Positions 1-22,925 of a stretch of 64,000 nt of DNA are shown one piece after another. The notes below the pieces were generated by a model. It worked only from the letters and a program-made list of their open reading frames with translations. It had not been told where the DNA came from and did no database searches. A program made the translations under genes and the position numbers. The stretch's first letter is position 1, and the number at the start of each line of letters is the position of its first letter. The stretch is from Nesterenkonia ebinurensis. Lineage in GTDB: Bacteria > Actinomycetota > Actinomycetes > Actinomycetales > Micrococcaceae. The stretch covers positions 124,001-188,000 of the forward strand of contig NZ_VWNF01000021.1 in NCBI RefSeq assembly GCF_008711175.1, in the 5' to 3' direction.

Positions 1-703
1 ACCGCAAGCAACGGCGAATGCACCGGCTCCCACTGTCGCTGAACTTAGCGCGAGGAAGTTCCTCCTTGAAAGTGGTCGCCGAGTCAGAGGCCGAGTTCTC
101 TTACTGCTGTGCATTTCAGCTCCTTCAATTGGTGGGAGAATCAGTGTGCCCGGCTTTCAAACCTCTGGGCGACACTGCACCCCGCGATCTTCAAGATGCC
201 CGAGTCTGGCAGGTGGTGATTAGCTCGAGACCTCCGGGACGGCGTGATCCACCCTACAAAGCTAAATAGGCACAACGTGAGGCGAAGCACATGTGCGCAA
301 ATGCACTATTGAGGTGCAAACATGCACGCATGTGAGAATGCATGAAGTCCCCCTCGCGGCGCACGCAACCTCTCGCCTCAACACCTCCAACACGACCACC
401 GAGAAGCGAATCCCCGAGGCATCAGCGGCCAGGCCCAACACTCACCCTCCAGCCCAATAAGCACACTGGAGAGTGACTTGTCCCACAGTAGTGGCGAACA
501 GACTCCATGGGTGAAGCACCACGCCCTCTGCACCAGCAACGCGAAGCACGAAAGCACGCACTCCAACTCCATGCAGTCCTTTTGCGCAGAACCAGAACCC
601 CTCACTGAACAATTGTGCTCACCCGTTGTGCAAGTTTGCTCATTTAGTGATGCTCCTCACTTGAGGCATCGTTATATGTGCTGTTGATTGTCAGGGCGAG
701 TCC
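1..703. other. Leading intergenic region, no supported gene
   Basis: I see no convincing gene here. Short open frames exist on both strands (for example 18-269 plus and 378-605 minus), but none has a recognisable domain or a good ribosome binding site. The stretch 295-345 is rich in TGCA and CATG words and holds a 14-bp palindrome, ACATGCACGCATGT, at 320-333. The left edge could contain the end of a gene lying mostly outside the window, which cannot be judged from here. Confidence 0.5.
627..642. promoter_or_regulatory. Imperfect palindrome upstream of the first glycosidase gene
   Basis: The 16-mer TGTGCAAGTTTGCTCA is an imperfect inverted repeat with arms TG.GCAA and TTGC.CA. It lies about 60 bp before the start of the 880-residue glycosidase. 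Size and position fit an operator for a LacI- or GntR-type repressor. No partner protein can be assigned, and a chance occurrence is possible. Confidence 0.3.
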
Positions 704-3346
704 ATGTGTAAGACCCGAGTCGCTCTACCGATGAGTACCCAAAGGAGTGTTGAGGTGACGGTTCGAGTGTCTTTGGTTGAGCAGGTTGTGAGGTCGTCTG
801 TGGTTGATTGGGCTATTGGACGCTTGTCTTCAATCTTGGATGCTCAAGGTGTTCGTGTTGCTGATGGCCCGGTGGATGTATTGGCTCATGGTGGGGATGC
901 GTTGTGGCTTCAGTGTGCTGTTGATGATGAGGGGCCAGCGGGTGAGGAAGCGTTTAGTTTTGAGGTCTCGGGGGAATCTTCTGTGCTCGTACTGAGAGTC
1001 ACCGGCGGTGGTGTACGGGGGTTGATGTATGGGGTCTTGGAGTTAGCTGATATCGCCAAGCATGCTGCTGACCCTGTGCAGGCACTGCGGGGGGTCGCTC
1101 CTGGAGTGTTCGAGCCCGCCACTGCGGTTCGCGGGGTACTGAGAACACTGGTCAGTGATGTGCAGGATATGTCCTGGTTCTTGGATAAGCGCTTTTGGTC
1201 TGAGTACTTGACAGCTCTTGCTACGCACCGGATCAACCGTTTTCATCTGGCTCTAGGAATGCAGTACAACTATTCGCATGATCCGGATGCGCAGGACAAC
1301 TACTTAGCATTTGCATATCCCTTTCTTGTAGATGTTGAAGGGTACGACGTTTCAGCTGACGGTGTGGACGCTGAAGAGCGTGCTCGAAATCTTGCGATGC
1401 TACGGTGGATCAGCTCCCAGGCCGCATTGCGAGGGATTCATTTCCAGTTGGGGCTGTGGAACCACGCTTATGACTTCATGGACAGTCCGCGCCAGCGATA
1501 CCGGATCCAGGGCTTGGACAAGTCAAATCATGCCCAATATTGCCGAGCTGGGTTGGCGCAGCTGCTACGGGAGTGCCCGGACATCAGCGGGGTGACGGTG
1601 CGTGTTCATTATGAAGGCGGGGTCCATGAACCCACTCATGAGTTCTGGTCTGAGGTGTTCCAAGGAGCAGGAGATTCTGGTCGTGCAGTAGAGATCGACA
1701 TGCACTCCAAAGGTGTGGATTCCAGGATTCTGGATTCTGCCCGCAGCGCTGGTGGACCGTTCATGATCTCGGGAAAGTACTGGGCTGAGCATCAGGGACT
1801 GCCGTACCACCAAGCTGCGGTGCGTGACATGGAGGCCGCACTCCCTCCGCGGGAAGGACTCAGTGGAGTCACCCGCGCAGTACGCAGGTTCACCCGGTAC
1901 GGGATGGGAGATTTCCTGCACCAGGACCGGGATTATGGTTTCTTGTTCCGGATCTGGCCTGGGACTCAGCGGGTACTGCATTGGGGGGATCCTGACCAGG
2001 TGGCGGGGATGGCACGAGCAGCGGCTCAGGTCGGCGCCCAGGGAGTGGAACTGTGTGAGCCACTGACGTTCCTGGGCCGAAAGACTACCGGGAGTCGTGG
2101 TGGGCGGAGAATATATGCTGATCGGCAGCTCGCCATTTCTGGCGATCCCTGGCAGAAGTACGCCTATACCTATCGACTCTGGGGACGCCTGCTGTACAAC
2201 CCGGAGGCTGATTCTGCGCAATGGGGCCGGTATCTGGATGATGTCTATGGAGCTGCTGGTCAGGATGTGGAAGAGGCAGTGGCAGCCACGAGTCGGATAC
2301 TGCCCCTGGTGACCACTTTTCACGGACCGAGCGCTTCGAATAACTTCTACTGGCCTGAGATGTTTATGAATATGCCGCTGGCAAACCAGGGCAAGACGGA
2401 GATGTACGCCTTTGACACCCCGGAACCCCATACTGTCGGGGCAGTCAGCGCGTTCGATCCGCAGCTGTTCGCTTCGGTCAATGAGTATGTTCAGGAGCTG
2501 ATCGACGGCTATCCAAGCGGCCGGTATACCCCTGATCAGGTTGCTGATTGGCTGGAGGAACTCTCTGCTACTGCTGAGCGCCATCTGGCTGCGGCTGCCT
2601 CGCGCACCGCTGAGACCTCTGTCGAGTATCAGCGTACAGTCATCGATGCGGTGGTCCTGGCCCAGTTGGGTCGGTTCTTTGCGCACCGAACCAGAGCGAC
2701 GATCAACTATGAGATCTATGTACGTCTCGGGGACTCAGGAGCCCTGCGGGTGGCGGTGGAACATTACCGCACCGCCAGGGAAGCGTTCGCTGAGGTGGCA
2801 TCGCTGACCAAGGGGGTCTATGTCTCTGATCTGGCTTTTGGGGATCGGGCATCGGAGCGGGGCCACTGGTCGGATCGGCTGGTCCATATTGATCAGGATC
2901 TGGCCGATCTGGAAGCTGAGTTTGAAGCTGCCCCGGCACCAACGGGGACTGCTGATGCTCTGCTGAGCCCCAGTGGTACTGTCCGCTCACGGCCTGTGGT
3001 GGACTACCAGGTTCCGGAACGATTCACCGCCGGTGAGCCGCTCAGCATTCGGGTCCAGGTCCACAGCAGGCTGGATGCCCAGGTAAGAGCCCACTTCAGG
3101 CATCTGAACCAGGGGGAGTCCTGGGAGTCGACGCTGCTGCGCCCAGATGCTGATGGCACCTACCGGGGCCAGGTTCCGGACGAGTACACGGATTCCCGGT
3201 TCCCTGTGCAAGTGTATTTCATCGTATCTGATGACTCTGCTGGGGCGTGGATCGTGCCGGGGTTGGAGGTGTCACTCTCAGCGATGCCATATCTGGTGAT
3301 CCATCCTGAGGCGGGCGGCGCCCAGATCGGTTCGGAGGTGGGCTAA
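704..3346 (+). CDS. Putative glycoside hydrolase with GH20-type zincin-like N-terminal domain
   Basis: Protein of 880 residues. Residues about 90-130 resemble the small domain 2 that precedes the barrel in GH20 and alpha-glucuronidase enzymes (a 'GVRGLMYGVLELAD' segment). A long alpha/beta region follows, rich in Trp, Tyr and His (for example 'RGVLRTLVSDVQDMSWF' and 'NNFYWPEMFMN'). A beta-rich C-terminal module occupies about 755-870. I see no signal peptide, lipobox or twin-arginine motif, so it is probably cytoplasmic. The start is uncertain: ATG 731 is an in-frame alternative and neither has a strong Shine-Dalgarno site. It ends two bases before the GTG of the dehydratase gene, so the two are very likely co-transcribed. 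Exact substrate is unknown; a uronic-acid-containing oligosaccharide is a guess from the downstream genes. Confidence 0.7.
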   Translation: MCKTRVALPMSTQRSVEVTVRVSLVEQVVRSSVVDWAIGRLSSILDAQGVRVADGPVDVLAHGGDALWLQCAVDDEGPAGEEAFSFEVSGESSVLVLRVTGGGVRGLMYGVLELADIAKHAADPVQALRGVAPGVFEPATAVRGVLRTLVSDVQDMSWFLDKRFWSEYLTALATHRINRFHLALGMQYNYSHDPDAQDNYLAFAYPFLVDVEGYDVSADGVDAEERARNLAMLRWISSQAALRGIHFQLGLWNHAYDFMDSPRQRYRIQGLDKSNHAQYCRAGLAQLLRECPDISGVTVRVHYEGGVHEPTHEFWSEVFQGAGDSGRAVEIDMHSKGVDSRILDSARSAGGPFMISGKYWAEHQGLPYHQAAVRDMEAALPPREGLSGVTRAVRRFTRYGMGDFLHQDRDYGFLFRIWPGTQRVLHWGDPDQVAGMARAAAQVGAQGVELCEPLTFLGRKTTGSRGGRRIYADRQLAISGDPWQKYAYTYRLWGRLLYNPEADSAQWGRYLDDVYGAAGQDVEEAVAATSRILPLVTTFHGPSASNNFYWPEMFMNMPLANQGKTEMYAFDTPEPHTVGAVSAFDPQLFASVNEYVQELIDGYPSGRYTPDQVADWLEELSATAERHLAAAASRTAETSVEYQRTVIDAVVLAQLGRFFAHRTRATINYEIYVRLGDSGALRVAVEHYRTAREAFAEVASLTKGVYVSDLAFGDRASERGHWSDRLVHIDQDLADLEAEFEAAPAPTGTADALLSPSGTVRSRPVVDYQVPERFTAGEPLSIRVQVHSRLDAQVRAHFRHLNQGESWESTLLRPDADGTYRGQVPDEYTDSRFPVQVYFIVSDDSAGAWIVPGLEVSLSAMPYLVIHPEAGGAQIGSEVG

Positions 3347-3348
3347 GG

Positions 3349-4443
3349 GTGCATATCACCGAAATTGAGACTCTGTTGCGGGGCAATATCGGAGTGGTCC
3401 GAATTCACACTGATGAGGGGCTGGTGGGTATCGGACAGGTGGCTCCGTATCAGGCCGGCATCAGCATCCAAGTGCTGCACCAGATGGTCGCCTCGAGGTT
3501 CTTAGGTCAGGACCCCTGGGACGTCGAGGTCCTCGTTGATCGTTGCCTTCGGGGCCACTACAAGTTCACCGGCAGCTTCTTGCACCGGGCAGTAGCGGGG
3601 GTCGATACTGCGCTGTGGGATCTGCTCGGTCGGCTCACCGGTCAGCCTGTGGCCAAGCTGCTCGGCGGGGTAGCTCGGAACCGAGTAGAGGTCTATGGGT
3701 CCTCGATGGTACGCCACACCAGCCCCCAGCAAGAGGTTGACCGGCTGCTGGAGGCGATCCAGAATAACGGGTTCAGCGGAGTCAAGCTGCGCATCGGTGA
3801 GGTGATGGGCCGTGATGATGCCGCAGCTGAAGCTCGAACCCGAGCTCTGGTTCCACTGGCTCGTGAGCGACTCGGCGATGAGGTGGCGATCTGTGCTGAT
3901 GCCAACGGCGGTTACACCGCAGCTGAGGCGATCAAGGTAGGCCGGATGCTGGAGGACTATGGATATTTCCATTTTGAGGAGCCATGTCCCTTTACAGATC
4001 TGGAAGCCACCCGGAGAGTTGCCGACGCCTTGGACATCCCGGTGGCTGGTGGCGAGCAGGACTACCTGCTGCCCCAGTTCCGGCAGATGATCGGCACCGG
4101 TGCGGTCGACATCATTCAACCCGACGTCTGCTACATCGGAGGAATCTCTCAGATCAAGAAGGTCGCAGCACTGGCCGAGGCCTCCAACGTAGCGTTCACT
4201 CCGCACTGTGCCAATGATTCGCTGCTGCAGGTCTTTACCCTGCATGTGGCGGCTGCGATTCCGGGGGCCTTCCAACGCCAGGAATGGTCCATAGAGCAGA
4301 CGGACTGGACCCAAGGGATCTACCGTTCACCGATCCTTGAAGTCAGGGAGGGAATGGTCGAGCTGCCGGGGGCCCCTGGGTGGGGCATCGAACTAGAGAA
4401 AACCTTCATCACCACTGCTGAGCGGGCTGTCAGTCGGCTATGA
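3349..4443 (+). CDS. Mandelate racemase/muconate lactonizing-type sugar acid dehydratase
   Basis: Enolase-superfamily protein of 364 residues, starting at GTG two bases after the preceding stop. The N-terminal capping domain (about 1-110) is followed by a barrel with the expected residues: Lys146 in 'GVKLRIG', metal ligands Asp184 ('CADANGGY'), Glu210 ('FEEPC') and Glu236 ('AGGEQ'), Asp259 ('QPDVCYIGG') and His286 ('TPHCAND'). A Lys on one side and a His-Asp pair on the other is the mandelate-racemase-subgroup arrangement used by acid-sugar dehydratases such as galactonate or glucarate dehydratases. The second position of the usual KxK motif is Arg here. It probably dehydrates an aldonate or aldarate released by the neighbouring glycosidases; the actual sugar acid cannot be told from sequence. 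Confidence 0.85.
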   Translation: MHITEIETLLRGNIGVVRIHTDEGLVGIGQVAPYQAGISIQVLHQMVASRFLGQDPWDVEVLVDRCLRGHYKFTGSFLHRAVAGVDTALWDLLGRLTGQPVAKLLGGVARNRVEVYGSSMVRHTSPQQEVDRLLEAIQNNGFSGVKLRIGEVMGRDDAAAEARTRALVPLARERLGDEVAICADANGGYTAAEAIKVGRMLEDYGYFHFEEPCPFTDLEATRRVADALDIPVAGGEQDYLLPQFRQMIGTGAVDIIQPDVCYIGGISQIKKVAALAEASNVAFTPHCANDSLLQVFTLHVAAAIPGAFQRQEWSIEQTDWTQGIYRSPILEVREGMVELPGAPGWGIELEKTFITTAERAVSRL

Positions 4444-4481
4444 GGCCTGCACCAGTCGATGCAGCACAGGCCTGTGGTGGT

Positions 4482-5165
4482 TCACCGGTCTGTGCTAGCA
4501 GGTTGGTCTTCGCGACGTTGGGCAAGAATTCTGGCCTTTGCCAGGTTGATGTGATCACGCAGGGTACTGGCTGCTTGTTGGGAGTCTCCGGTGAGGATGG
4601 CATCGATGACCGCCTGGTGTTCGGCAGCCACGGTGGGGATCGAGGTGCGCCTATGTGCCCGATACTGTCCGATGGTCAAGTGAATCTCTCCGGTAATCAT
4701 CTGGTACATCCTGGCCAGCCGGGGACTGTTCAGCCCGTTGATCAGCCCCCAGTGGAAGGCGATGTCGGCTTTCACCAGGGCTCGGAAGTCTCCGGTGGCA
4801 GCGGCCTGCGTGATATTGTCCTGGGCGGCAGAGACCTCCTCAGGGACTCTGCGATGCTGGGCCAAGGCCGCAGCAGCTGCGGACTCGAAAGTCGCACGAC
4901 TGAAGAACAGATCCTCGATCTCAGCTTCGGTCAGCACCGGCACCACCGCAGGCTTATGCGCGCTGCGGCGCAGAAGCCCCAGACTGGTCAGCCGGTCCAG
5001 GCAGGACTTCGCTGTGGGGCGGGCGACTTCGTACTCCTGGGCCACCCTACTTTCGGTAACCTTCTCCCCCGGGCTGATTTCTCCGTTGATGATGCGAGAC
5101 CGCAGCGACTCAAACAGCGCATCCTGCAAAGAGGCCGGGCTCAGCTGATACGCAGCGCCTGCCAC
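4482..5165 (-). CDS. GntR family (FCD subfamily) transcriptional regulator
   Basis: Repressor-type regulator with an N-terminal winged helix ('GEISPGEKVTESRVAQEYEV') and a C-terminal all-helical FCD ligand domain ('DIAFHWGLI', 'EHQAVIDAILTGD'). The frame is open upstream to 5291, but an excellent Shine-Dalgarno sequence, AAAGGAGGG, lies six bases before GTG 5165. I therefore start there, giving 227 residues, normal for the subfamily. It lies downstream of the isomerase gene on the same strand, probably in one transcript. FCD regulators typically sense sugar acids or other carboxylates. A likely operator is the double TGTCnGACA palindrome at 6119-6146 in the divergent promoter, which would give autoregulation plus control of the GHL6 gene. 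Confidence 0.88.
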   Translation of the reverse strand: MAGAAYQLSPASLQDALFESLRSRIINGEISPGEKVTESRVAQEYEVARPTAKSCLDRLTSLGLLRRSAHKPAVVPVLTEAEIEDLFFSRATFESAAAAALAQHRRVPEEVSAAQDNITQAAATGDFRALVKADIAFHWGLINGLNSPRLARMYQMITGEIHLTIGQYRAHRRTSIPTVAAEHQAVIDAILTGDSQQAASTLRDHINLAKARILAQRREDQPASTDR

Positions 5166-5291
5166 ACCGGACCCTCCTTTCCTTGTACCACTCGGCACCT
5201 CACCGCAGGCCTTACCTGGAGCGTGAGACCGCGGGCTTGGAGTCCAGCCCACCGGGATGGACGATGCCATCCTGTCACAGAGGGCGACCAA

Positions 5292-6098
5292 TTAGCTCCT
5301 TGTCAACCACCCCAGGGTCTGGGCGGCAGCAACTGTGGGCTTATATTCAGCAGCAACGGTGCCGGTGTAACCAACCTGGGTCAGGGCAACTCCGATTGCC
5401 TCGAAATCCAAGGTCCCGGAGCCCGGTTCGCCCCTGCCCGGGGCATCGGCCAGTTGCACGTGGGCGAACCTGCCGCGACTCTCAGTGATCGCTGCAGCCG
5501 GATCGATACCGTTATGCCCCAGGTGGAATGTGTCCACCAGAAGGGCCAGGTGTTCTTGGTGACCAACCTGGTCGATCAGCTCCAAGACCTCACGGTGGGT
5601 GGTCAACGGATAAGCACCGTTGAGCCCATGAGCCAATGGCTCGACCAGCACAGTGCCTCCGATGCTGGCCACCTTATGAGCAGCACCGCGATAGGCCTCC
5701 AGCGCGACCTCCCGCTGGATGAGTTCATCCTGATCGGGGTCGAGCTGCCCGTAGAGCAGGTTAAAGCTGCGGCACCCTGTGGCCTCAGCAATGGCCAGCA
5801 GCACCTGCGTGCTGGCAGCAAGCTCGTCGGCCCGCTCAGGCCGGCAGGCAATGCCCCGTTCTCCTCCTGGCATGTCCCCGGCGTAGAAGTTCAGCCCTGT
5901 CAGCTCAACTCCGGCGGTCTTGATCCACGAGAGGAATTCGTTGACCTCCTGCTGTCCAGGATCCGGCTCGGCGAAGGGCCACCAGCTCTCCACCCGGGTG
6001 AAGCCGGCCTGTCGAGCGGCCTCGAACCGCTGAGCATAGGGCAGCTCGGTAAACATGATCGAGACATTGGCACTGATCTGAAAGGTATTCCAACGCAT
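5292..6098 (-). CDS. Hydroxypyruvate isomerase-like TIM-barrel enzyme
   Basis: Protein of 268 residues of the xylose-isomerase-like TIM barrel superfamily, closest in appearance to hydroxypyruvate isomerase and 2-oxo-tetronate isomerase. Conserved features are 'RVESWWPFAEPD' near the N-terminus, 'GLNFYAGDMPGGERG', 'VLVEPLAHG' with a metal-binding Glu, 'LVDTFHLGHNG' and the terminal 'VAAEYKP' with the second Glu. The frame is open to 6227, but ATG 6098 begins the canonical 'MRWNTFQISANVS' start; the extra codons would cover the operator. Hydroxypyruvate isomerase makes tartronate semialdehyde, the substrate of the GarR-like reductase encoded at 8339-9229, so a common glycerate-forming route is plausible. 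Activity on a four-carbon 2-oxo acid is the main alternative. Confidence 0.82.
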   Translation of the reverse strand: MRWNTFQISANVSIMFTELPYAQRFEAARQAGFTRVESWWPFAEPDPGQQEVNEFLSWIKTAGVELTGLNFYAGDMPGGERGIACRPERADELAASTQVLLAIAEATGCRSFNLLYGQLDPDQDELIQREVALEAYRGAAHKVASIGGTVLVEPLAHGLNGAYPLTTHREVLELIDQVGHQEHLALLVDTFHLGHNGIDPAAAITESRGRFAHVQLADAPGRGEPGSGTLDFEAIGVALTQVGYTGTVAAEYKPTVAAAQTLGWLTRS

Positions 6099-6118
6099 GA
6101 CCCAATCTTGCCACAGAA

Positions 6119-6146
6119 TTGTCTGACATGTAAGCATGTTAGACAA
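6119..6146. promoter_or_regulatory. 28-bp palindromic double operator in divergent promoter
   Basis: TTGTCTGACATG, four spacer bases, then CATGTTAGACAA form an inverted repeat with one mismatch in 12 bp. Each half contains its own smaller near-palindrome (TGTCTGACA and TGTTAGACA), matching the TnGTnnnACnA-like pattern of FCD-type GntR operators. The site lies between the divergent isomerase (start 6098) and GHL6 (start 6167) genes, where it can control both. Assignment to the GntR protein of this cluster is inference. Confidence 0.7.
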
Positions 6147-6166
6147 TATCGAGTGATAGGAGTCAC

Positions 6167-8284
6167 GTGAGCAGTTTTCAACAGTCCCGATCAGCACACT
6201 GGTATGAGAGAGCGACTCGGTGGACACAGGTGACGTTCACCGACGATGATCCCGGCAGCTTCGACATCGACCTCTGGGTGGATCTGATGCGCCGGACTCA
6301 GTCGAATGCGCTGTGCATCAGTGCAGGTGGGTACATGGCCTTCTATCCGACGAAGATCCCCTTCCATCACCGCAGCGCCCATCTGGGTGATACAGATCCG
6401 TTTGGGGAGCTGATCGCCCACGCCAAAAGACTGGGGATGGTGGTCATGGCCAGGGTGGATCCGCATGCGATACATGCCGATGCTGCCGCTGCGCACCCGG
6501 AGTGGCTGGCCCGCGATGAGCACGGCGACCCGGTGGAGCATTCCTCGATGCTGGGGGTGTATTGGACTGATCCGTTCAGCACCTACCTCAGTGAGCACAT
6601 CACTGCCATCGCTCAGGAGATCACCGCAGAGTATGACGTTGATGCGTTGTTCGCGAATCGATGGGAGACGGTGCGAGGAGTCTCCTACTCCGAACCGGTA
6701 GCTGCTCGGTTCAGAACCGAGACGGGGTTCGAGCTGCCTCGGTTCGACAATCTCGACGACCCGGCTTGGCCGGCCTACAACACTTGGCGCGCTAAGGCAT
6801 TCAGCGAACTTGTCGGGATCTGGGATGATGCGGTCCAGGCGGTGAAGCCTCACGTGCGGTTCCTGCCGAACCGGGGGCCGCAGATCACCCGGGATCTGGT
6901 CCGGGAGAAGATCGAGGACCGCTATCCAATGTTCGTCATCGACAAGCAGGGGCGGTGGGGCGCTGAGCCGGTGTGGACCTCGGGTCGTATCGGCAAACGG
7001 ACCGCCGGGCTGTGGCCGGGCAAACCGATGGCGCTGCTGTCCTCAGTGGGCACCGAGGACCACGTTCTGCGGTGGAAGGACTCAGTAACAGATCCCCATG
7101 AGCTGAAGACCTACTTGGTCGATGGCTTCATCCATGGGGGCAGGCCATGGTTCTGCAAGTTCAAGGCCGAGCTGTTTGATAACCGGTGGATCGAACCGGT
7201 AGTGGAGGCCTTTGAGTTGCACGCCAGATGCGAGACCGTGCTGGAAGGGCTCGAACCCACTGCTGAGGTCGCGGTGCTAGATGCCGGAGCCCCTGATGGT
7301 CCCACCCCGTGGCATAAGGCTACCGGTCACACCGGTGACCACGAAGACGGGATCTACCAGGCGCTTCTGGAGGCTAGGATCCCGTTCACCTATGTCTCTG
7401 ATCAGATCCTCAGCGCTGAGGCGCTGGAGGGGATCCGGGTGCTGGTGCTGGGGTCGACCCGGGAGCTGGGTGATGAGCAGCTGGGGGTCATCGAGGAGTT
7501 CGTGACCGCTGGCGGCAGCGTGGTCGCCTGCTTTGACGCCACCCTGAACAGCGCACCCGGGCAGCCCCAACTGGGCTTGGGCAACACACTGGGGGTGGAG
7601 GTAGTCTCCGATGAACGCGGACCGGTGAAGAACAACTACATCACCTTCAGCCCCGAGCACCCCTTGGCCACCGGGTTTGAGGGCGCCCAACGCATCGTCG
7701 GGGGCACCAAGACTCTCGAGGTCAAAGCTGGCCCCGCAGCCGATGTGGCCTTCCGGTTCATCCCAGACTACCCGGACCTGCCTATGGAGGAGGTCTATCC
7801 CCGCCGCTACGACGGCGCCCCGGCGGTGGTGACCAGCCAGCACCCCTCCGGTGGACGCGCTGTCTACATCGGATTCAATATCGCAGAGATCTACTGGCAG
7901 GCTCTGCAGTCCGATCACGGCCGGCTGTTGGCCAACTCAGTGCGCTGGGCCATGGGCGAAGACCCGGCATTGGTCGAGGTCGACGGCCCGGGCCTGGTCG
8001 ACATCGCCGTTCGCCACAGGGGCGACCAGAGCGCGGTCAGTCTGGTCAACCTCCACACCCCGGCAGCGATGCGGGGGCAGCGGCACGAAATTATCCCTCT
8101 ACCACCTCAGCAGCTGCGCCTGCGGGTCCCCTCCGGCGCCACCGGGGCGCAGGCACATCTGTTGGTGGCCGGCATCACCGCCGAAGTCACCATGGAGGGG
8201 CAGCTCGCCACGGTCGAGATCCCCCAGCTGGACCTGTTGGAGACCGTGCACATCACCTGGAACACCGCCGATTCAAGCACATAG
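6167..8284 (+). CDS. GHL6-type putative glycosyl hydrolase with glutamine-amidotransferase-like domain
   Basis: Protein of 705 residues. The N-terminal half looks like the 'hypothetical glycosyl hydrolase 6' barrel: 'NALCISAGGYMAFYPTKIPF', 'GMVVMARVDPHAIH', 'HPEWLARDEHGD' and 'VDALFANRWETV'. Residues about 400-560 resemble the Rossmann-like trimerisation domain of GH42 beta-galactosidases ('VRVLVLGSTRELGDEQL', 'FVTAGGSVVACFDA'), and the rest is beta-rich. GTG start with a GGAG site seven bases upstream. No signal sequence. It is divergent from the isomerase/GntR pair across the shared operator. No GHL6 substrate is firmly known to me, so a glycan-processing role is inferred from fold and context. 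A paralogue lies at 9226-11211. Confidence 0.78.
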   Translation: MSSFQQSRSAHWYERATRWTQVTFTDDDPGSFDIDLWVDLMRRTQSNALCISAGGYMAFYPTKIPFHHRSAHLGDTDPFGELIAHAKRLGMVVMARVDPHAIHADAAAAHPEWLARDEHGDPVEHSSMLGVYWTDPFSTYLSEHITAIAQEITAEYDVDALFANRWETVRGVSYSEPVAARFRTETGFELPRFDNLDDPAWPAYNTWRAKAFSELVGIWDDAVQAVKPHVRFLPNRGPQITRDLVREKIEDRYPMFVIDKQGRWGAEPVWTSGRIGKRTAGLWPGKPMALLSSVGTEDHVLRWKDSVTDPHELKTYLVDGFIHGGRPWFCKFKAELFDNRWIEPVVEAFELHARCETVLEGLEPTAEVAVLDAGAPDGPTPWHKATGHTGDHEDGIYQALLEARIPFTYVSDQILSAEALEGIRVLVLGSTRELGDEQLGVIEEFVTAGGSVVACFDATLNSAPGQPQLGLGNTLGVEVVSDERGPVKNNYITFSPEHPLATGFEGAQRIVGGTKTLEVKAGPAADVAFRFIPDYPDLPMEEVYPRRYDGAPAVVTSQHPSGGRAVYIGFNIAEIYWQALQSDHGRLLANSVRWAMGEDPALVEVDGPGLVDIAVRHRGDQSAVSLVNLHTPAAMRGQRHEIIPLPPQQLRLRVPSGATGAQAHLLVAGITAEVTMEGQLATVEIPQLDLLETVHITWNTADSST

Positions 8285-8338
8285 ACCACCGACCTCATCA
8301 CAGGCCATCAACAGGATTGAACAACGAAGGAGATTAAG

Positions 8339-9229
8339 ATGCGTATCGGATTCATCGGACTGGGCGTCATGGGAGCACCGATGGCAGCCAACCTCATCAC
8401 TGCTGGCCACCAGCTGAGCATCCACCGGGTGAAGGAGACCGAAGCCCACCAGCAGCTGCTTGCCCAGGGAGCCACACCAGCTGCTTCCCCGGCCGAAGCT
8501 GCCGAGGGAGCTGAAGTAGTGATCCTGATGCTTCCTGACACACCCGATGTCGAGCATGTGGTTCGAGCACCTGATGGCGTCCTGACCGGCCTGATACCAG
8601 GAGCCGTGGTGGTGGATATGAGTTCCATCTCCCCGGTCGCCACCAAGGAACTGGCCACCGCTGTGGAGCAGGCCGGCGGCCAATACGTGGACGCGCCGGT
8701 CTCGGGCGGGGAGATCGGCGCCAAGGAGGCCACACTGACGATCTTCGTCGGCGGCCAAGCAGCCACGGTGGAGCAGGTAATGCCCATCCTTGAGGCCATG
8801 GGAAAGAACATCACCCACATGGGGGCCGCTGGTGCGGGGCAAGCCACCAAAGTGGTCAACCAGATCATCGTGGGAATGACTATCGAGGCAGTGGCCGAAG
8901 GTCTGGCACTGGCTGAAGCCTCCGGGATCGATCCGGCTACCGTCACCAAGGCACTCTCCGGCGGGTTCGCCTCCTCGAAGATCCTCGAAGTCCACGGCAG
9001 ACGGATGGTCAACCGCACCTTCGAACCAGGGTTCCGCCTGAAGCTGCACCGCAAGGATTTGCGTCTGGCCCTCGACGCCGGGGCGCACCACCACACCCCA
9101 CTGCCGGGAACCCAAGTAGTAGCCGCTCAGATGGATCAGGCCCTGCAGAAAGGATGGGCCGAGCGCGACCACGCCGCGCTGTTCGCCCTGCTGACCGAAG
9201 ATGCCGACGCAGGAGGGCAGAACCAGTGA
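8339..9229 (+). CDS. 2-hydroxy-3-oxopropionate (tartronate semialdehyde) reductase-like dehydrogenase
   Basis: Beta-hydroxyacid dehydrogenase of 296 residues. The NAD(P)-binding 'GFIGLGVMGAPMAANL' motif (residues 4-19), the substrate-binding 'DAPVSGGEIGAKEATL' segment (about 118-133) and catalytic Lys171 in 'GQATKVVNQ' are all present. A GAAGGAG ribosome binding site precedes ATG 8339. In this family GarR reduces tartronate semialdehyde to D-glycerate, and LtnD/GarR-like paralogues oxidise four-carbon threonates. With a hydroxypyruvate-isomerase-like enzyme and an acid-sugar dehydratase nearby, the GarR reaction is the simplest reading. The gene overlaps the next by four bases (GTGA), so translation is probably coupled. 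Confidence 0.88.
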   Translation: MRIGFIGLGVMGAPMAANLITAGHQLSIHRVKETEAHQQLLAQGATPAASPAEAAEGAEVVILMLPDTPDVEHVVRAPDGVLTGLIPGAVVVDMSSISPVATKELATAVEQAGGQYVDAPVSGGEIGAKEATLTIFVGGQAATVEQVMPILEAMGKNITHMGAAGAGQATKVVNQIIVGMTIEAVAEGLALAEASGIDPATVTKALSGGFASSKILEVHGRRMVNRTFEPGFRLKLHRKDLRLALDAGAHHHTPLPGTQVVAAQMDQALQKGWAERDHAALFALLTEDADAGGQNQ

Positions 9230-11211
9230 GCCAGCCCTGGTGGTCTAGGCCGTTCCGCACCGTTCAGACCAACATCCGTGAAATCGACGCTGGTCTGGAC
9301 GTCGAGAAGGCTTTGGACTTCATCGAAGACTACGGGGCTGACACCTGGTTACTCTCCACAGGCGGGATCATAGCCAACTACCCCAGCGTGCTGAAGTGCC
9401 AGAGCGTCAACCCAACCCTGGTGCAGCGGCCCTCAGGGGACCTCATCGGCGACGCAGTGACAGCAGCAGCCGAACGTGGGATCCGGGTCCTCTCCCGAAT
9501 GGACTTCTCGAAAATCGATGCTCGCCGGGCAGAAGAGCACCCCGAATGGTGCTTCGTGACTGCCGAGGGGCGACAACAAGTCTACAACGGCTACCGCAGC
9601 ACCTGTCCCTCAGCGGGCTACTACCAGCAGGCAATGTTCGATGTGGTCACGGAGGTGCTTCAGAACTACCCGGTCAGTGGGTTCTTCTTCAACATGATGC
9701 ATTTCAACGAACGTGACTACTCACGAACCTATTGGGGTGCATGTCACTGTGCAGCATGCTTGGCAGGATTTCAAGACCACACCCCGGGCGCTGAGCACCC
9801 CACCAGCCCAGAGTCCGCGAGTTACCCCGCGTGGCAGAAATACGCATCCGACGTCTTATCCGAGCTGAACCATCGGATGCAGGACCACATCAGCGGCATC
9901 AACCCCGACGTAGCGCTGATCCTCGGCGACAAAGCCCACATCACCTACTACGAAGCCAACAATGCCGCCGGCCGCCCGCTGTGGCACTACCAGACTTCCG
10001 AATCAGTCAGCGCAGCCCGCTCCGAAGACCCACAGCGGACTGTGTTCACCAACAGCACCGCATTCTTCGACATGCCCTACCGGTGGGCCGGAGAAGACCC
10101 TGACCACTTCAACCAGTACCTTATCCAGTCCATTGCCCACGGAGGATCTCCCTCCACGTACATCATGGGCACTCCGCAGACCACCCAGTATCAGAACCTG
10201 ACCTCGGGCCGGGAAATCACCCGGTTCCACCGAGACCACGCCGAGACCTATGCCGGCATGGAGTCCTCCGCTGGGACCGCTTTGATCCGCTCCCACAACC
10301 CTAACGACCCCCATGCAGACCGACGTCGATCCGAGTTCCGCGGCTGCTACCAAAGTCTCGTCGAAGAACACCTGCCTTTCGACGTCGTCGACCGCAAAGC
10401 CCTGCCGAACCTGGATCCCCACCGATACCGGACCATAATCCTGCCAGATATAGGCGCCCTCACCGGCTGCGAAGCCCAAAAGCTCAACACTGCCCTGGCC
10501 CAGGGCACCCACATCATCGCCACCGGCGACTCCGCATTCGACGGCCCCCATCCGCAACTGGCACCACAGAGCCCCGTCGCCACCCGGAAAGCTACCTACA
10601 CGACCGAAACAGACCTCTACAGTCTTCATATCCCCCCCCCCCCCCCCCACGATCACATCCCCGTTCTCGGCGCTTTCGAGGTCCTCGAACCCTCCATCCA
10701 CGCCGCCACCGAATTCCGCGCACTGAGCCGAGCACCCTACGGACCCCCCGAAAAATGCTATGGACACCAACCCACCAACCACCCAGCCATCACCCAACAA
10801 CCCACCGGTGAAGGACACCTCACCCACATCGCCCTACGCCCCGGACACATTTACCACGACACAGGAATCACCCGAGCCCGGAACCTCATCACAGACCACA
10901 TTCACACCGTCACAACCCCACAGCTGACCACCGACCTCCCCCCACAGACCCATCTCACCCTCGCAAAGAACACCGCCGGGGAAACCCTGATCCACATCAT
11001 CAACACCACCGGATACGCACCTCAGAAATTCCACCCCCCGCTACTCATCCCACCAAGCCAAATACACCTCCACACCTCCACCATCCCCACACACATCCAC
11101 GCCCTCACCAACAACACCGCCCTGAACTGGACCACTGACAACAACAGCATCACCATCCACACCCCACAAATAAAAACATTCGAAGCTATCCGGATGACCT
11201 ATTCGAATTAG
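9226..11211 (+). CDS. Second GHL6-type putative glycosyl hydrolase, with C17 tract
   Basis: Protein of about 661 residues starting at GTG 9226, with AGGAGGG nine bases upstream. The frame is open to ATG 9154, but that start would lie deep inside the reductase gene. The N-terminal barrel shares its plan with the 705-residue neighbour: 'YGADTWLLSTGGIIANYPS', 'GIRVLSRMDFSKIDARRAEE', 'HPEWCFVTAEGRQQ'. 'FNMMHFNERDYS' and a CHCAAC cysteine cluster follow. A GATase-like segment spans about 370-460. The coding sequence contains 17 consecutive C residues (10632-10648, encoding a Pro run). Downstream of this tract codons become strikingly C- and A-rich and G-poor, and the protein becomes rich in Thr, His, Ile and Pro. 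It ends 18 bases before tatA. Confidence 0.75.
   Translation: MSQPWWSRPFRTVQTNIREIDAGLDVEKALDFIEDYGADTWLLSTGGIIANYPSVLKCQSVNPTLVQRPSGDLIGDAVTAAAERGIRVLSRMDFSKIDARRAEEHPEWCFVTAEGRQQVYNGYRSTCPSAGYYQQAMFDVVTEVLQNYPVSGFFFNMMHFNERDYSRTYWGACHCAACLAGFQDHTPGAEHPTSPESASYPAWQKYASDVLSELNHRMQDHISGINPDVALILGDKAHITYYEANNAAGRPLWHYQTSESVSAARSEDPQRTVFTNSTAFFDMPYRWAGEDPDHFNQYLIQSIAHGGSPSTYIMGTPQTTQYQNLTSGREITRFHRDHAETYAGMESSAGTALIRSHNPNDPHADRRRSEFRGCYQSLVEEHLPFDVVDRKALPNLDPHRYRTIILPDIGALTGCEAQKLNTALAQGTHIIATGDSAFDGPHPQLAPQSPVATRKATYTTETDLYSLHIPPPPPHDHIPVLGAFEVLEPSIHAATEFRALSRAPYGPPEKCYGHQPTNHPAITQQPTGEGHLTHIALRPGHIYHDTGITRARNLITDHIHTVTTPQLTTDLPPQTHLTLAKNTAGETLIHIINTTGYAPQKFHPPLLIPPSQIHLHTSTIPTHIHALTNNTALNWTTDNNSITIHTPQIKTFEAIRMTYSN
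10632..10648 (+). repeat. Poly-C tract of 17 bases inside a coding region
   Basis: Seventeen consecutive cytosines encode a run of prolines in the second GHL6 protein. Tracts this long slip readily during replication, so the gene may switch on and off by frameshift, or the length may be a sequencing or assembly artefact. In the length given, the frame is open to the stop at 11211. Confidence 0.9.
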
Positions 11212-11229
11212 CAACCTTGAGGAGCACAT

Positions 11230-11466
11230 ATGAATATCGCAGGTTGGCAGTGGTTAATAATTCTCGCCATTGTTCTTCTCCTATTTGGAGCCACGAAGTT
11301 GCCGAAACTGGCCCGGTCGCTGGGCGAGTCCACCCGGATCTTCAAGTCCGAAGTCCACGTCTTGAGGCAAACAGAGCACTCACAGGAGGAGTCGGGAACT
11401 GAGGGGGGTGAAGGGGAAGTTCTTGACTCCGGCAGTAGCTCTCACAGAAGATCACATCAGCGCTGA
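11230..11466 (+). CDS. tatA: Twin-arginine translocase subunit TatA
   Basis: Protein of 78 residues with the TatA layout: a single N-terminal membrane helix ('WLIILAIVLLLFGATKLP'), the Phe-Gly hinge, an amphipathic helix ('KLARSLGESTRIFKSEV') and a charged acidic tail. GAGGAG lies seven bases before ATG 11230. TatA oligomerises to form the size-variable export path for folded proteins. Gene order tatA-tatC-tatB directly after the GHL6 gene suggests one transcript with the glycosidase cluster. Confidence 0.95.
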   Translation: MNIAGWQWLIILAIVLLLFGATKLPKLARSLGESTRIFKSEVHVLRQTEHSQEESGTEGGEGEVLDSGSSSHRRSHQR

Positions 11467-11472
11467 TCAGCC

Positions 11473-12297
11473 ATGACCACTACAGCATCATCTCGAGCAT
11501 CGACGCGGCGTTGGAGGATCGGGAGCCAAAGGGCCACTCGGCGTGATCCTGAGGGGCGGATGTCGCTGAGGGATCATCTGCGCGAGTTGCGCCGGCGGCT
11601 GCTGATCGCTGCTGCTGGCATTGTGCTGGGTGCTGTCGCTGGGTTCTTTCTCTATGACTGGCTGGTGGCCACCCTGGCTGCCCCAGTGCTGGAGCATGGT
11701 GGTGGGGAGGATGCCCGACTGACCTCGATTGCGTTCAACGCTGTCGGCCAGCCACTGGATCTGCTGATCCGGCTCTCCCTGTTCGTGGGTCTGGTGATCT
11801 CCTCCCCGGTGTGGCTGTATCAGATCTGGGCCTTTATCATGCCGGGGCTGAAGAAGAAGGAGAAGCGGTATGCGATGGGGTTCATCGCCGCCAGTGTGCC
11901 GCTGTTCCTGGCCGGGATCTTCATGGCCTATACGTTGTTGCCGCGGGCGGTGGAGTTCTTCTTCTCCCTGAACCCAGAGGGCACCTCCAATATCATTGCC
12001 CCGGATGTCTACTTCACCTTTGTGCTGCACCTGTTCATCGCCTGCGGGATCGCGATGGTGATCCCGGTGATCCTGGTCGGGGTCAACATGATGGGCATCA
12101 TCACCGGGCAGCAGGTGCTGCGCTCCTGGCGGGGGGTGGTGATGCTGATCGCGGTGATGTCAGCCCTGGCAGCACCTGGTGGTGAGGCGATCACCATGTT
12201 CTTCATCATGATCCCACTGACCCTGCTCTTCGCCGTCGCGATCGGCCTCTGCCTGCTCAACGACAAACGCCGCGAAAAGCGGGAAAGGTTGGTGTGA
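11473..12297 (+). CDS. tatC: Twin-arginine translocase subunit TatC
   Basis: Protein of 274 residues. A basic N-terminal extension leads into the hallmark 'DPEGRMSLRDHLRELRRR', followed by six membrane helices including 'YQIWAFIMPGLKKKEKR' in the conserved loop. ATG 11560 with GAGGGGCGG upstream is an alternative start, but actinobacterial TatC proteins usually carry a short tail ending in '(D/N)PEGRM', so ATG 11473 is kept. TatC with TatB binds twin-arginine signal peptides. The gene lies six bases after tatA and just before tatB. Confidence 0.95.
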   Translation: MTTTASSRASTRRWRIGSQRATRRDPEGRMSLRDHLRELRRRLLIAAAGIVLGAVAGFFLYDWLVATLAAPVLEHGGGEDARLTSIAFNAVGQPLDLLIRLSLFVGLVISSPVWLYQIWAFIMPGLKKKEKRYAMGFIAASVPLFLAGIFMAYTLLPRAVEFFFSLNPEGTSNIIAPDVYFTFVLHLFIACGIAMVIPVILVGVNMMGIITGQQVLRSWRGVVMLIAVMSALAAPGGEAITMFFIMIPLTLLFAVAIGLCLLNDKRREKRERLV

Positions 12298-12303
12298 GAA
12301 CCG

Positions 12304-12687
12304 ATGCCCGGCATCAACGTCTACGAAATCTTTATTCTCATCGTCTTGGCCATGGTTCTTCTAGGACCGGAACGGCTCCCACATTACGCGAAGACACTAG
12401 CCCAGTGGGCGAAACATGGTCGCCAGTTGGCAAACGAAGCGAGAGCGCGTTTTGAGAATGAAACCGGGACATCTTTCGAGAACGTGGACTGGAAGAAGTA
12501 CGATCCACGCCAATATGACCCCCGCAAGATCTTACGTGACGCCCTAGCGGATGAACCCAGCTCTACTACGAGGAAGGAGTCACTCAACTCTGGTCGAGGG
12601 CCTCGCGAGATCTTTCAGTCACGCCTCCCCACAGATGCTCCCAAACATCGGACCACAGGTATTGAAGAACAAATGAACCAGTCCTGA
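12304..12687 (+). CDS. tatB: Twin-arginine translocase subunit TatB
   Basis: Protein of 127 residues. It starts with the TatB-type membrane helix and Gly-Pro hinge ('VLAMVLLGPERLPHYAKTL'), where TatA has Phe-Gly. It then carries the actinobacterial TatB signature 'VDWKKYDPRQYDPRKILRDA' before a disordered tail. It assembles with TatC as the signal-peptide receptor. In most actinobacteria that I know, tatB is encoded apart from tatAC, so finding it as the third gene of a tat operon inside a catabolic cluster is unusual. Its start follows the tatC stop by six bases. Confidence 0.93.
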   Translation: MPGINVYEIFILIVLAMVLLGPERLPHYAKTLAQWAKHGRQLANEARARFENETGTSFENVDWKKYDPRQYDPRKILRDALADEPSSTTRKESLNSGRGPREIFQSRLPTDAPKHRTTGIEEQMNQS

Positions 12688-13670: not shown

Positions 13671-14135
13671 CTAACACCCCTCATACTCATTGAGGATTGC
13701 TATCTTGCTAGATGAGGCTGAGTTCGGGTCGAATTCATGCGTTAGCCACTCTTGGATGAGCTTCCGAGCAAGTTGTTTGCCAACGACACGCTGCCCAATA
13801 CAGAGCACCTGGGCATTATTGGACAGCACTGATCGCTCGACGGAGTAAGAGTCGTGTGCCGTGACTGCACGGACTCCCCGCACCTTATTAGCCGAAATTG
13901 CCACCCCCAGTCCTGTTCCGCAGATCAACAACGCTCTGTCGGCTTCGCCGGCAGCCACCTTTTCCGCAGCCGCAGTAGCCACGCTGGGGTACGCCATGAC
14001 CTCATCAGAAGCAACTCCTACGTCAAGTACCGAACTCACACGTTCGTGAGTTTCCAGATCCGCACGGAGAGCCTCTTTGTACTCGAATCCCGCATCATCA
14101 GATCCGACGATAACTCGCAGCTTACGGCCTTGCAT
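13671..14135 (-). CDS. RpiB/LacAB family sugar-phosphate isomerase
   Basis: Protein of 154 residues with the RpiB active site: Asp13 in 'VGSDDAGFEYK', Cys72 in 'LLICGTGLGVAISANK', and His94 in 'VTAHDSYSVERSVLSNNAQV'. RpiB homologues interconvert ketose and aldose phosphates. Next to a dihydroxyacetone-kinase-type enzyme they often act on four-carbon sugars, as EryI/DerI do in erythritol or erythrulose breakdown (D-erythrulose 4-phosphate to D-erythrose 4-phosphate). An AAAGG site precedes ATG 14135. It is encoded 24 bases after the kinase gene on the same strand. Ribose-5-phosphate isomerase activity cannot be excluded. Confidence 0.88.
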   Translation of the reverse strand: MQGRKLRVIVGSDDAGFEYKEALRADLETHERVSSVLDVGVASDEVMAYPSVATAAAEKVAAGEADRALLICGTGLGVAISANKVRGVRAVTAHDSYSVERSVLSNNAQVLCIGQRVVGKQLARKLIQEWLTHEFDPNSASSSKIAILNEYEGC

Positions 14136-14159
14136 CCAACAACCTTTCCTGGTTCTGAT

Positions 14160-15860
14160 TCACTTCAGATGATCAGCGATGCGGTTGACGATCATGGCCA
14201 TGGACGTAGCACCTGCGTCAGGGGTTCCGAGGCTCTTCGCTGCTAAAGGGCGAGCTCGCCCAACTTTCGGTGTCATCTGTGCAGTATCAGCAGCCGCTGC
14301 AGTCGCGTCAGCCGCTGCAGCGCTCCATGCTTGCGGAAGCTCTACCCCACAGTGAAGAGCCTTCTCGAGGCTTTGCACGAAGGGCAGCAGAGAGTCAAGC
14401 AGCGTCTTGTCCCCCTCATGAGCTCCGCCAAGGTCCACCATGGATTGGGCGAACGCCTGAACTACACCGGCAGCAACCTCCGCATCGTAGTACATTGCGT
14501 TCTCCAATCGCGCACCCGCCGCCTCCAGCGCTGCTCCCCAAAGCACTCCTGACGTTCCACCAGCGTCATCGGCCCAAGCTTGCCCAGCCGCACCCAGAAC
14601 CGGACCAGGCCCAGCATATTCGGGCAATTCCTTGAGCACTTGCAGAGCAGCGTTGATGCCGCGCAGCATCCCACGGCCGTGGTCACCATCGCCAGCAACA
14701 GCATCAATTCTGCCGAGCTCATCCTCGTTCTCAGCAAGCATGGTTGCGATGCTCTCGGCTACCGTTCGAATGTCTGTGGCCAGCTTCTGAGCCGCAGCGT
14801 CGGCCTCAGCAAACTCCATTTGTGATGCCGTTGAGATTTCAGCGCTGGCCAACGACTTTTTCGGCAGGGCCGAGGAAACCTTTCGGAACGCTGGAGCATA
14901 GGCATCGGCGGTCCACCACCGCTCCAAGTCGTCATCCAGCCACATCAGAGTCAACGAGCATCCTCCCATGTCCAGGCTGGTGACCAGCTCACCAACCTCG
15001 GGCTGCACCACCTCCAGCCCGCGTGCCGCCAATTCTTGGGAGACCTTGCCCCATAGAAGGAACAACTCCTCGTACTTGGTAGTTCCCAAACCGTTGAGGA
15101 TTGCAGCTACTCGATTGCCAGCCTCAGACGGTGCCTCAGCGAGAATTCGGTCAACGAAGAGCCGGGCGAGCTGCTCTGCGCGCATCAACGGCACATCTTC
15201 GATACCTGGTTCACCATGAATGCCCAGTCCAAGACCTAGGTGCCCTTGGGGGACCTGGAACAACGGCTCCTGGGCACCTGGCATCGTGCAGCCTGAGAAT
15301 GCTACGCCAAGCGTACGCGTCGCAGCGTTGGCGCGGATTCCTGCGGCCTCTACTGCGTCGATCCCGAGTCCCTCGGCTGCCGTGGCACCCAGGACTTTGA
15401 AAACCGAGAAGTCCCCCGCGATTCCACGTCTTTTCTCCGGTTCGTTGGCTGAGGCGATGTCGTCTGTGACCAGGACCATGCGGACATCGATGCCCTCAGC
15501 CACCAAGCGCTGTTTGGCGAGACCGAAGTTCATCACATCCCCGGCATAGTTGCCGAATGCGAAAACCACCCCGCGACCTGTATCTGCCGCACGCCCTACG
15601 TTGGCTGCCCAACGTGCCGAAGGTGAGGTGAAGATATTCCCAACCACTGCTCCGTGGGCCAGTCCCGGTCCGACGAGTCCAGAGAATGCAGGGTAATGCC
15701 CGGATCCTCCCCCCACGACGACCGCCACTTGGTCACGATCAGCCACATCGGAAACTACAACTCCGCCTTCAACGCCAGCAAGGCGATCCGAGTAGAGCTC
15801 GAGAAAACCAGCAAGCTGGTCCTCCATGAACTTCGCTGGGTCATCGAAGAGCACTGTCAA
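14160..15860 (-). CDS. Fused DhaK-DhaL kinase, probable erythrulose/dihydroxyacetone kinase
   Basis: Protein of 566 residues with a DhaK domain (about 1-330) and a DhaL domain (about 355-565). DhaK features are 'VVGGGSGHYPAFSGLVG', His215 in 'GLGIHGEPGIED' (the residue that binds the substrate carbonyl covalently in this family) and 'TSLDMGGCSLTLMWLD'. DhaL shows the ATP/Mg site 'AVAGDGDHGRGM' (about 388-398) and 'GGTSGVLWG'. This ATP-dependent arrangement occurs in glycerone kinases and in L- or D-erythrulose kinases. The RpiB- and TIM-barrel-type isomerases on either side favour a tetrulose. TTG start with AAGGAG six bases upstream. It is divergent from the SorC regulator gene across a palindromic operator. 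Confidence 0.9.
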   Translation of the reverse strand: MTVLFDDPAKFMEDQLAGFLELYSDRLAGVEGGVVVSDVADRDQVAVVVGGGSGHYPAFSGLVGPGLAHGAVVGNIFTSPSARWAANVGRAADTGRGVVFAFGNYAGDVMNFGLAKQRLVAEGIDVRMVLVTDDIASANEPEKRRGIAGDFSVFKVLGATAAEGLGIDAVEAAGIRANAATRTLGVAFSGCTMPGAQEPLFQVPQGHLGLGLGIHGEPGIEDVPLMRAEQLARLFVDRILAEAPSEAGNRVAAILNGLGTTKYEELFLLWGKVSQELAARGLEVVQPEVGELVTSLDMGGCSLTLMWLDDDLERWWTADAYAPAFRKVSSALPKKSLASAEISTASQMEFAEADAAAQKLATDIRTVAESIATMLAENEDELGRIDAVAGDGDHGRGMLRGINAALQVLKELPEYAGPGPVLGAAGQAWADDAGGTSGVLWGAALEAAGARLENAMYYDAEVAAGVVQAFAQSMVDLGGAHEGDKTLLDSLLPFVQSLEKALHCGVELPQAWSAAAADATAAAADTAQMTPKVGRARPLAAKSLGTPDAGATSMAMIVNRIADHLK

Positions 15861-15959
15861 GAAACGCTCCTTGTCATCTGATTACGGGACAAAACCGCAG
15901 ACAGAACTTATCGTGTGCTGTGTCACTGAAAACACTAGCACGACTTGAACATCAGTGTG

Positions 15960-15973
15960 TGAACATATGTGCA
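15960..15973. promoter_or_regulatory. Palindrome in kinase/SorC divergent promoter
   Basis: TGAACATATGTGCA is a near-perfect palindrome around ACATATGT, flanked by GTG and TACAC. A second copy of TTGAACAT lies about 14 bp upstream. The site is between the divergent kinase (start 15860) and SorC regulator (start 16052) genes, where a SorC-family operator is expected. The protein-DNA pairing is inferred from position only. Confidence 0.45.
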
Positions 15974-16051
15974 TACACTGCAGCCGCACCGGTACGATGT
16001 TCATTTGGTGGAGCATTACATTTTGAGACTTCTAACGAAACGGCAGGCACT

Positions 16052-16975: not shown

Positions 16976-17058
16976 GTCCAGACCCACCTGACCTAGATTG
17001 ACATTGTGACACCAGTTACTCGATTATGGGAGCATCTTGCACACTTGAAAGGGCACAT

Positions 17059-18006: not shown

Positions 18007-18039
18007 AATTTTCCCCATCCCTCCGACAGAAGGCCCCCT

Positions 18040-22781: not shown

Positions 22782-22925
22782 TGCGTGGTCCTCCCTGGGC
22801 CGAACAAGACATAAACTGTTTCGTGACTGACTCGAAATTTTGACTGATGTGAGCACAGTCACGCATTTAGCGTATGAAGCTGCCAGCAGAGAACCTAGTC
22901 GTAGAGGGGTGAAACTTTTTCGTTG

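Follow-up and report, generated by a model that had tools for sequence, protein, structure and literature searches.

Twin-arginine translocation (Tat) systems are usually treated as general machines, and the accessory tat genes of Bacillus subtilis are regulated together with their substrate. Several tatC genes occur in species of several phyla, including Actinobacteria, and tat loci of Bacilli lie near substrate genes, as in the B. subtilis arrangements phoD-tatAdCd and ywbN-tatAyCy (PMC3827258); a PhoD-specific TatA has also been mentioned (PMC13186574). The usual actinobacterial layout is a tatAC pair with a separate tatB (PMC4383559). In this work we describe a tatA-tatC-tatB trio (tatACB) in a 64,000-nucleotide stretch of the Nesterenkonia ebinurensis genome (G000:C12:124001-188000, hereafter the window; genome G000 comprises 3.74 Mb in 50 contigs).

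Like the B. subtilis examples, the trio has a Tat substrate gene, here a putative one, in its neighbourhood. Unlike them, it is a trio, it belongs to an actinomycete and to the end of a sugar-catabolic run, and its putative cargo gene is divergent and ~11 kb away. Judged by the features of the PhoD-TatAdCd kind, the genome has a second tat set and the cluster has a gene with a Tat signal (~11 kb off), and linkage conserved across genomes was not found at the 19 other GHL6b loci compared. The TatA, TatB and TatC of the trio are closest to the housekeeping-type proteins of the genus, as in the actinobacterial tatAC plus tatB; unlike in that usual layout, tatA, tatC and tatB stand together. Our preferred reading, to which we give a little less than an even chance, is that the locus imports and hydrolyses a putative sugar-acid glycoside and that its accessory Tat set raises the export of the binding protein encoded there. 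The locus itself is real and strain-specific, and a functional link appears plausible.

Results

The tat trio follows two GHL6 genes

Three plus-strand genes lead into the trio: GHL6a (6167-8284), a GarR-like gene of the 2-hydroxy-3-oxopropionate reductase family (8339-9229) and GHL6b (9226-11211). The two GHL6 proteins match PF14871 at 56.6 and 90.8 bits (cut-off 35), and GHL6b starts at the GTG at 9226, with a 4-base overlap (GTGA) with the GarR stop. After a gap of 18 bp come, on the same strand, tatA (11230-11466; TIGR01411 62.3 bits, over the cut-off of 53.9), tatC (11473-12297; TIGR00945 171 bits, over the cut-off of 132.7) and tatB (12304-12687; TIGR01410 42.2 of 56.5 bits and NF002377 59.2 of 96, both under cut-off), with 6 bp between tatA and tatC and 6 bp between tatC and tatB. 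Further upstream, the plus strand carries the gene for GH880, an 880-aa glycosidase-like protein (704-3346), and an MR_MLE (enolase superfamily) gene for a sugar-acid-dehydratase-like protein (3349-4443). The minus strand carries a GntR/FCD regulator gene (4482-5291; PF00392, PF07729; the true start is probably downstream of the start of the open reading frame) and Hyi, which encodes a hydroxypyruvate-isomerase-like or 2-oxo-tetronate-isomerase-like TIM barrel (5292-6098, from its likely start).

An earlier note on this DNA had described these genes as contiguous and mostly co-directional. The genes and their families were confirmed, but GntR and Hyi lie on the minus strand, divergent from GHL6a. 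A 576-aa plus-strand open reading frame at 4440-6170 is antisense to GntR and Hyi and is almost certainly no gene. In agreement with the same note, no aldolase is recognised in 704-12687; the genome was not searched for one.

An importer with a Tat-type binding protein lies upstream of GH880

The same note had reported no sugar importer in the cluster, an artefact of the window edge. Family searches place a binding lipoprotein gene and two permease genes directly upstream of GH880 and divergent from it (L011:8851-12115, minus strand). The solute-binding lipoprotein (445 aa; SBP_bac_8/SBP_bac_1) is encoded by L011:10778-12115. Only the first 38 codons of this gene belong to the window (1-114, minus strand), and the rest extends to G000:C12:122777. 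It carries the twin-arginine signal SRRNFLAL with a lipobox, AVAC, downstream (4-72, minus strand). Its TIGR01409 match (17.6 bits, cut-off 16.7, E 0.029) is the best among the four matches listed genome-wide, two of which exceed the cut-off. Twin-arginine substrates were to be sought elsewhere in the genome, as the note had advised, and the best match proved to be the binding protein of the cluster's own importer, outside the cluster as first drawn. By reading the sequences we agree that neither GHL6 protein nor the first glycosidase has a twin-arginine signal. A regular-expression scan of the 64-kb window and the 14 kb upstream, which also listed several frames judged not credible, gave no other credible Tat signal. 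As a control, four other binding proteins of the genome were read; none has a clean RR-x-F/L signal, one being ambiguous (KRRAALSG).

The second-best Tat-signal match in the genome is at C2:110526 (L134:3518-5188; SRRVFLGASSAAG). No tat genes were recognised by eye within the 8-kb stretch around it.

Relatives carry importer genes where the window carries tat genes

GHL6b was compared with 19 other loci: one in G099 (L014), six from plasmid and genome collections (L072-L077), eleven from a search of the class (L118-L128) and one in G171, of the same genus (L140/L141). Two of these come from one genome (G370), and L125 carries two GHL6b genes. GHL6b is rare: with its own genome included, strong matches are limited to 2 of the 149 genomes of the family and 2 of the 30 of the genus (3 in each sample at E 0.001), and to 11 of 394 class genomes at 1e-60. 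The order in which GntR-Hyi is divergent from GHL6a-GarR-GHL6b is common to G171, Ruania rhizosphaerae (L074) and G526 (L119), with module identities of 51-68% in G171 and 53-71% in R. rhizosphaerae; GntR is 59-60% identical to its homologues in both. At the other GHL6b loci the module is rearranged or partial. The gene-order search suggested by the earlier note identifies the block as a recurring catabolic module. It marks an uncharacterised GH151-like enzyme pair that lacks the GH151 nucleophile, in a pathway with a patchy distribution among actinomycetes and a partial presence in some alphaproteobacteria, and our literature searches on GHL6, GH151 and GH138 found nothing describing it.

Directly 3' of GHL6b, five loci (L074, L119, L120, L122 and G171) carry a binding-protein gene and two permease genes, followed in L074, L119 and G171 by a 2-hydroxyacid dehydrogenase gene. 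In the window, tatA-tatC-tatB occupies the slot where these relatives carry a Tat-type binding protein and permeases. A homologue of the window's own binding protein is present at 8 of the 19 other loci, with an RR-type signal in all eight, and the Rhizobium binding protein (L073), unmatched by this query, also has an RR-type signal. That locus, on Rhizobium acidisoli pRapFH23b, shares with ours GntR, 2-hydroxy-3-oxopropionate reductase, an ABC importer whose binding protein has an RR signal, GHL6b and MR_MLE; unlike the window, its 21.5-kb stretch has no separate GHL6a, Hyi or tat match. GH880 and the dehydratase occur together near GHL6b in Blastococcus (L077), and in G379 (L129) a GH880 homologue lies ~11 kb from one GHL6b.

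The binding protein of the window's importer is the best G000 match of its counterpart in the Ruania cluster (168 bits, with two others at 86 and 79), and is 25-29% identical to the G171 or Ruania protein. The only match in the window to the importer genes of G171, at 1e-3, is the dehydrogenase (19206-19970, 31%). As the binding protein is non-orthologous and yet the best own match of the Ruania protein, the importer that once belonged to the GHL6 module has apparently been lost here, and the module appears to work with, or beside, the importer on the GH880 side.

The window tatC is a mosaic within a genus-type Tat set

The genome holds three tatC genes: that of the window, that of a tatA-tatC pair, and that of a divergent tatACB. 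The pair lies behind a gene we take to be pafBC-like, and its tatB is on another contig. We presume that this tatAC (C42:286k) and tatB (C33) are the housekeeping genes because the tatC type of the pair is found in 29 of 30 genus genomes. The second tatC of G160 is of the divergent type and that of G042 is a broken fragment.

Window TatA is 55-64% identical to genus TatA (12 best pairs, 66-78 residues). Window TatB is 52-69% identical to genus TatB (12 best pairs, 84-120 residues) and 57% identical to the genome's own housekeeping TatB. The TatB frame has a short C-terminus, with 129 aa compared with 161-262 (one 139) for full-length housekeeping-type matches in the genus. All three frames are intact, and the N-terminal sequences of TatA and TatB are conserved. 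The tatA core gives pN 0.083 and pS 0.76 and the tatB core pN 0.229 and pS 0.73, pairwise values that include constraint on the housekeeping gene and in which pS is saturated; dN/dS on the tatC tail returned one codon and was discarded. On sequence grounds, the window Tat set is a constrained, genus-type paralogue. We do not favour a whole set acquired from another genus: at E 1e-30, TatB matches only G000 and G012 among 297 order genomes, none outside the genus, in a sample with few congeners and with weaker matches uncounted. Trees were built from genus sequences and the third own set, dropping L105 (truncated TatB) and cutting TatA to 60 and TatB to 95 residues. The TatC tree pairs the window protein with its own housekeeping protein at 0.83; neither the TatA tree (node support 0.045) nor the TatB tree (window node 0.63) places the paralogues.

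The two tatC copies share a sharp tract. Window and housekeeping tatC are identical at 621 of 628 positions in 11543-12170 (plus strand), compared with 90 of 115 in the tail at 12171-12285 (tract versus tail, Fisher p 7e-16) and 26 of 70 at 11473-11542; the tatA cores share 93 of 126. Judged from this pattern, the window tatC is a mosaic of paralogue and housekeeping gene (C42), its core overwritten by gene conversion from the latter. The nearest relative by TatC, G151, shares 553 of 628 positions in the tract and 116 of 126 in tatA with the housekeeping copy. The housekeeping copy is therefore the orthologue and likely served as donor, and the conversion probably took place after the lineage had separated from that of G151. 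The tail, short as it is, does not quite fit this donor picture: there the window copy matches G151 at 99/115 positions and the housekeeping copy at 94/115, a slight difference that we cannot fully explain. Of the seven differences within the tract, three are sites where housekeeping tatC is unlike G151 (codon positions 1 or 2) and four are sites where window tatC is (all third positions). An assembly artefact is not favoured, as the copies lie on different contigs, differ seven times in the tract and are unlike outside it. Literature searches on tatC copies and gene conversion returned no tatC conversion by title or abstract start. The tract provides a naturally occurring case of TatA and TatB diverging around a homogenised receptor.

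The third Tat set is a divergent tatA-tatC-tatB beside a lipoprotein with an RR signal, found in G000 (C42, L012:8771-11490) and in G160 (L133:6744-9454); pairs of a tat set and an RR lipoprotein thus occur in the genus. The lipoprotein has weak intradiol-dioxygenase matches, and response-regulator- and histidine-kinase-like genes lie alongside (by eye). Nearby are genes that we presume to be acyl-CoA and kinase genes.

A palindrome lies between the divergent genes Hyi and GHL6a

An operator-like palindrome of 28 bp, TTGTCTGACATG-TAAG-CATGTTAGACAA, lies at 6119-6146 between Hyi and GHL6a. Its pattern, written after the sequence had been seen, occurs in 0 of 100 shuffles. The half-site TTGTCWGAC stands just upstream of GHL6a at four of the six other loci scanned (L118, L119, L120 and L140 of G171); these exact letters are missing upstream of GHL6a in L074 (Ruania) and L122, and a few further copies occur elsewhere in the loci scanned. 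We hypothesize that GntR binds this palindrome. The 18-bp gap between GHL6b and tatA contains no terminator-like site, and co-transcription of tatACB with GHL6a-GarR-GHL6b is what the layout suggests.

A model for the locus and its alternatives

In the preferred model, a sugar-acid-containing glycoside would be imported by the ABC importer, whose solute-binding lipoprotein would be exported through the Tat pathway. GH880 and the two GHL6 proteins, which have no signal peptides, would cleave the glycoside in the cytoplasm, and its acid part would pass through the dehydratase, Hyi and GarR on the way to glycerate. The GntR/FCD regulator, at the 6119-6146 palindrome, would control the divergent promoters. 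Given its place at the 3' end of the GHL6a-GarR-GHL6b run, the genus-type paralogous tatACB should be transcribed and induced together with the enzymes, which would supply extra Tat capacity at times of binding-protein synthesis. Since the TatC receptor core was recently homogenised with housekeeping TatC, the window set most likely recognises the same signals, as a dosage supplement and not a translocase of new specificity. It would then export twin-arginine proteins, the binding protein among its cargo. If true, an importer with a Tat-needing binding protein and a co-regulated Tat set would make Tat demand and dosage directly testable.

Several observations weigh against this model. Searches with TatA, TatB and TatC (tblastn, 1e-5) returned no tat genes at any of the 19 other GHL6b loci, a result that holds for the stretches searched, of 6.4-35 kb (6.4 kb at L121), and does not exclude tat genes farther away. 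The only tatC listed for G171 is ~407 kb from its GHL6b locus. In G171 and at the other loci a Tat-type binding protein does without tat genes nearby, which makes a dedicated set dispensable. The window-type second tatC is found in one of 30 genus genomes, G000 itself. The importer is related to those of the G171 and Ruania clusters and, by comparison of the proteins, is not their orthologue: its binding protein shares no more than 25-31% identity with the binding proteins of actinomycete clusters, compared with 45-76% among the latter. The gene for this protein is divergent and ~11 kb from tatA, and 100-720 of the window holds no palindrome copy. Tat-type signals on binding proteins are also not special to the module, as shown by L141:7800-9131 and C2:110526, whose products, read by eye and without a family search, we take to be binding proteins. 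TIGR01409 is insensitive, its four listed matches missing the RR lipoprotein of the third Tat set, and so provides no census of Tat cargo. A promoter and terminator scan did no better than shuffles, and the homogenised TatC argues against specialisation.

A general GHL6-Tat association is not supported (no tat match in the stretches searched at the 18 other loci or in G171), nor is the earlier note's link of the route to protein export as a general rule. The note had asked whether the neighbourhood recurs beyond this strain; the adjacency is seen in this genome only. A weaker Tat link survives through the Tat-type signal of the binding protein, present here and at all eight other loci with a homologue close to GHL6b. 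Such a link between the Tat set and the binding protein would be strain-specific, and accidental placement is nearly as likely. More doubtful is a metabolite-induced Tat translocase in the full sense, with tatACB in a GntR-controlled operon, export capacity for the binding lipoprotein rising with the enzymes, and conversion keeping TatC near the housekeeping type.

Under accidental placement, a duplicated or transferred genus-type tatACB would have landed behind GHL6b as a rearrangement removed the importer genes, and it would serve general Tat cargo. It had been stated beforehand that the link would be accidental if this were the only tat set of the genome and its adjacency to GHL6 were not conserved. 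The presence of three tatC genes contradicts the first part, and the second agrees with what was found (0/19). The rarity of the window-type tatC in the genus and the homogenised TatC also fit an accident; the short spacing, the low pN/pS, a slot occupied by a Tat-type binding protein gene in five relatives, and the genome's best Tat-signal match lying within the cluster all speak against it.

It is unlikely that the trio is a specialised translocase, adapted through its divergent TatA and TatB to cargo encoded elsewhere, for which the sugar cluster provides a promoter only. The identities of TatA and TatB to their genus homologues and the other Tat signal over cut-off, at C2:110526, would suit it, but its receptor TatC is homogenised and no further credible signal turned up by regular expression in the window or the 14 kb preceding it. 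Least probable is a decaying, functionally silent duplicate, for which the short TatB and the lineage restriction speak, and against which stand three intact frames, pN well below pS and the conserved N-termini of TatA and TatB.

Enzymes and the possible route to glycerate

GH880 has no Pfam match, and its score against NF049878 alpha-d-galacturonidase (35.6 bits) is far under the cut-off of 1300. A three-sequence GH880 profile finds BPa0997 (PDB 6hzf, 6hze), a protein of similar length, as a remote match (E 1.4e-9 for the whole sequence), single stretches being weak (0.0012 and 0.44). We take BPa0997 and NF049878 to represent GH138 alpha-galacturonidase. The same profile has a weaker match to a beta-N-acetylhexosaminidase at residues 66-197 (E 0.0068), which leaves a trace of the earlier GH20-zincin-like label for the N-terminal part; the stronger match is to BPa0997. 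A structure model of GH880 (mean pLDDT 49.9) was left unused.

A profile of 26 GHL6 proteins finds the GH151 alpha-L-fucosidase 6tvk at 3e-30 in three stretches, followed by GH42 galactosidases, and the GHL6b model (mean pLDDT 75) superimposes on 6tvk with a Foldseek TM of 0.75 (rmsd 6.4). GHL6 thus shares profile and fold with GH151. The two differ at the catalytic Asp of GH151: Asn156 is invariant in 26 of 26 aligned GHL6 proteins, and the aligned 6tvk residue is chain Asp183. The GH151 nucleophile is Asp154 (PMC10154630), which equals Asp183 if the 29 extra chain residues (689 vs 660) are an N-terminal tag. With Asn at this position, fucosidase activity by the GH151 nucleophile mechanism appears unlikely for GHL6. 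Mfuc3, a working fucosidase, also matched GHL6 (PMC4723247) and was later filed in GH151 (PMC10154630).

The dehydratase-like protein matches PF13378 (4e-57), PF02746 (2e-15) and PDB 3tcs (2e-96). Hyi scores 225 bits against TIGR03234, under the equivalog cut-off of 353.45, and GarR scores 325.6 bits against TIGR01505, narrowly under 340.75. Because both miss their equivalog cut-offs, a catabolic route towards glycerate is a reasoned guess in both direction and substrate. The note had proposed a glycan or aldonate route ending at glycerate: GarR, Hyi and a glycerate-kinase-like gene, seen by reading at four other loci (L074, L077, L124 and L125), fit it. The genes at these four loci presumably encode glycerate kinases.

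Neighbouring genes

Beyond tatB, 13671-19973 holds genes for an RpiB-family isomerase, a DAK-type kinase, a sugar-binding regulator, a TIM-barrel isomerase and 3HCDH-like and D-2-hydroxyacid dehydrogenases, a set reminiscent of tetritol or tetrose catabolism. The dehydrogenase encoded at 19056-19973 shares 30-31% identity with that of GHL6 clusters. Paralogous solute-binding protein genes (61% protein identity) flank the GHL6 region at 21498-23015 and L011:7272-8723. With GH5 and GH3 glycosidase genes beside them, they may reflect a local duplication.

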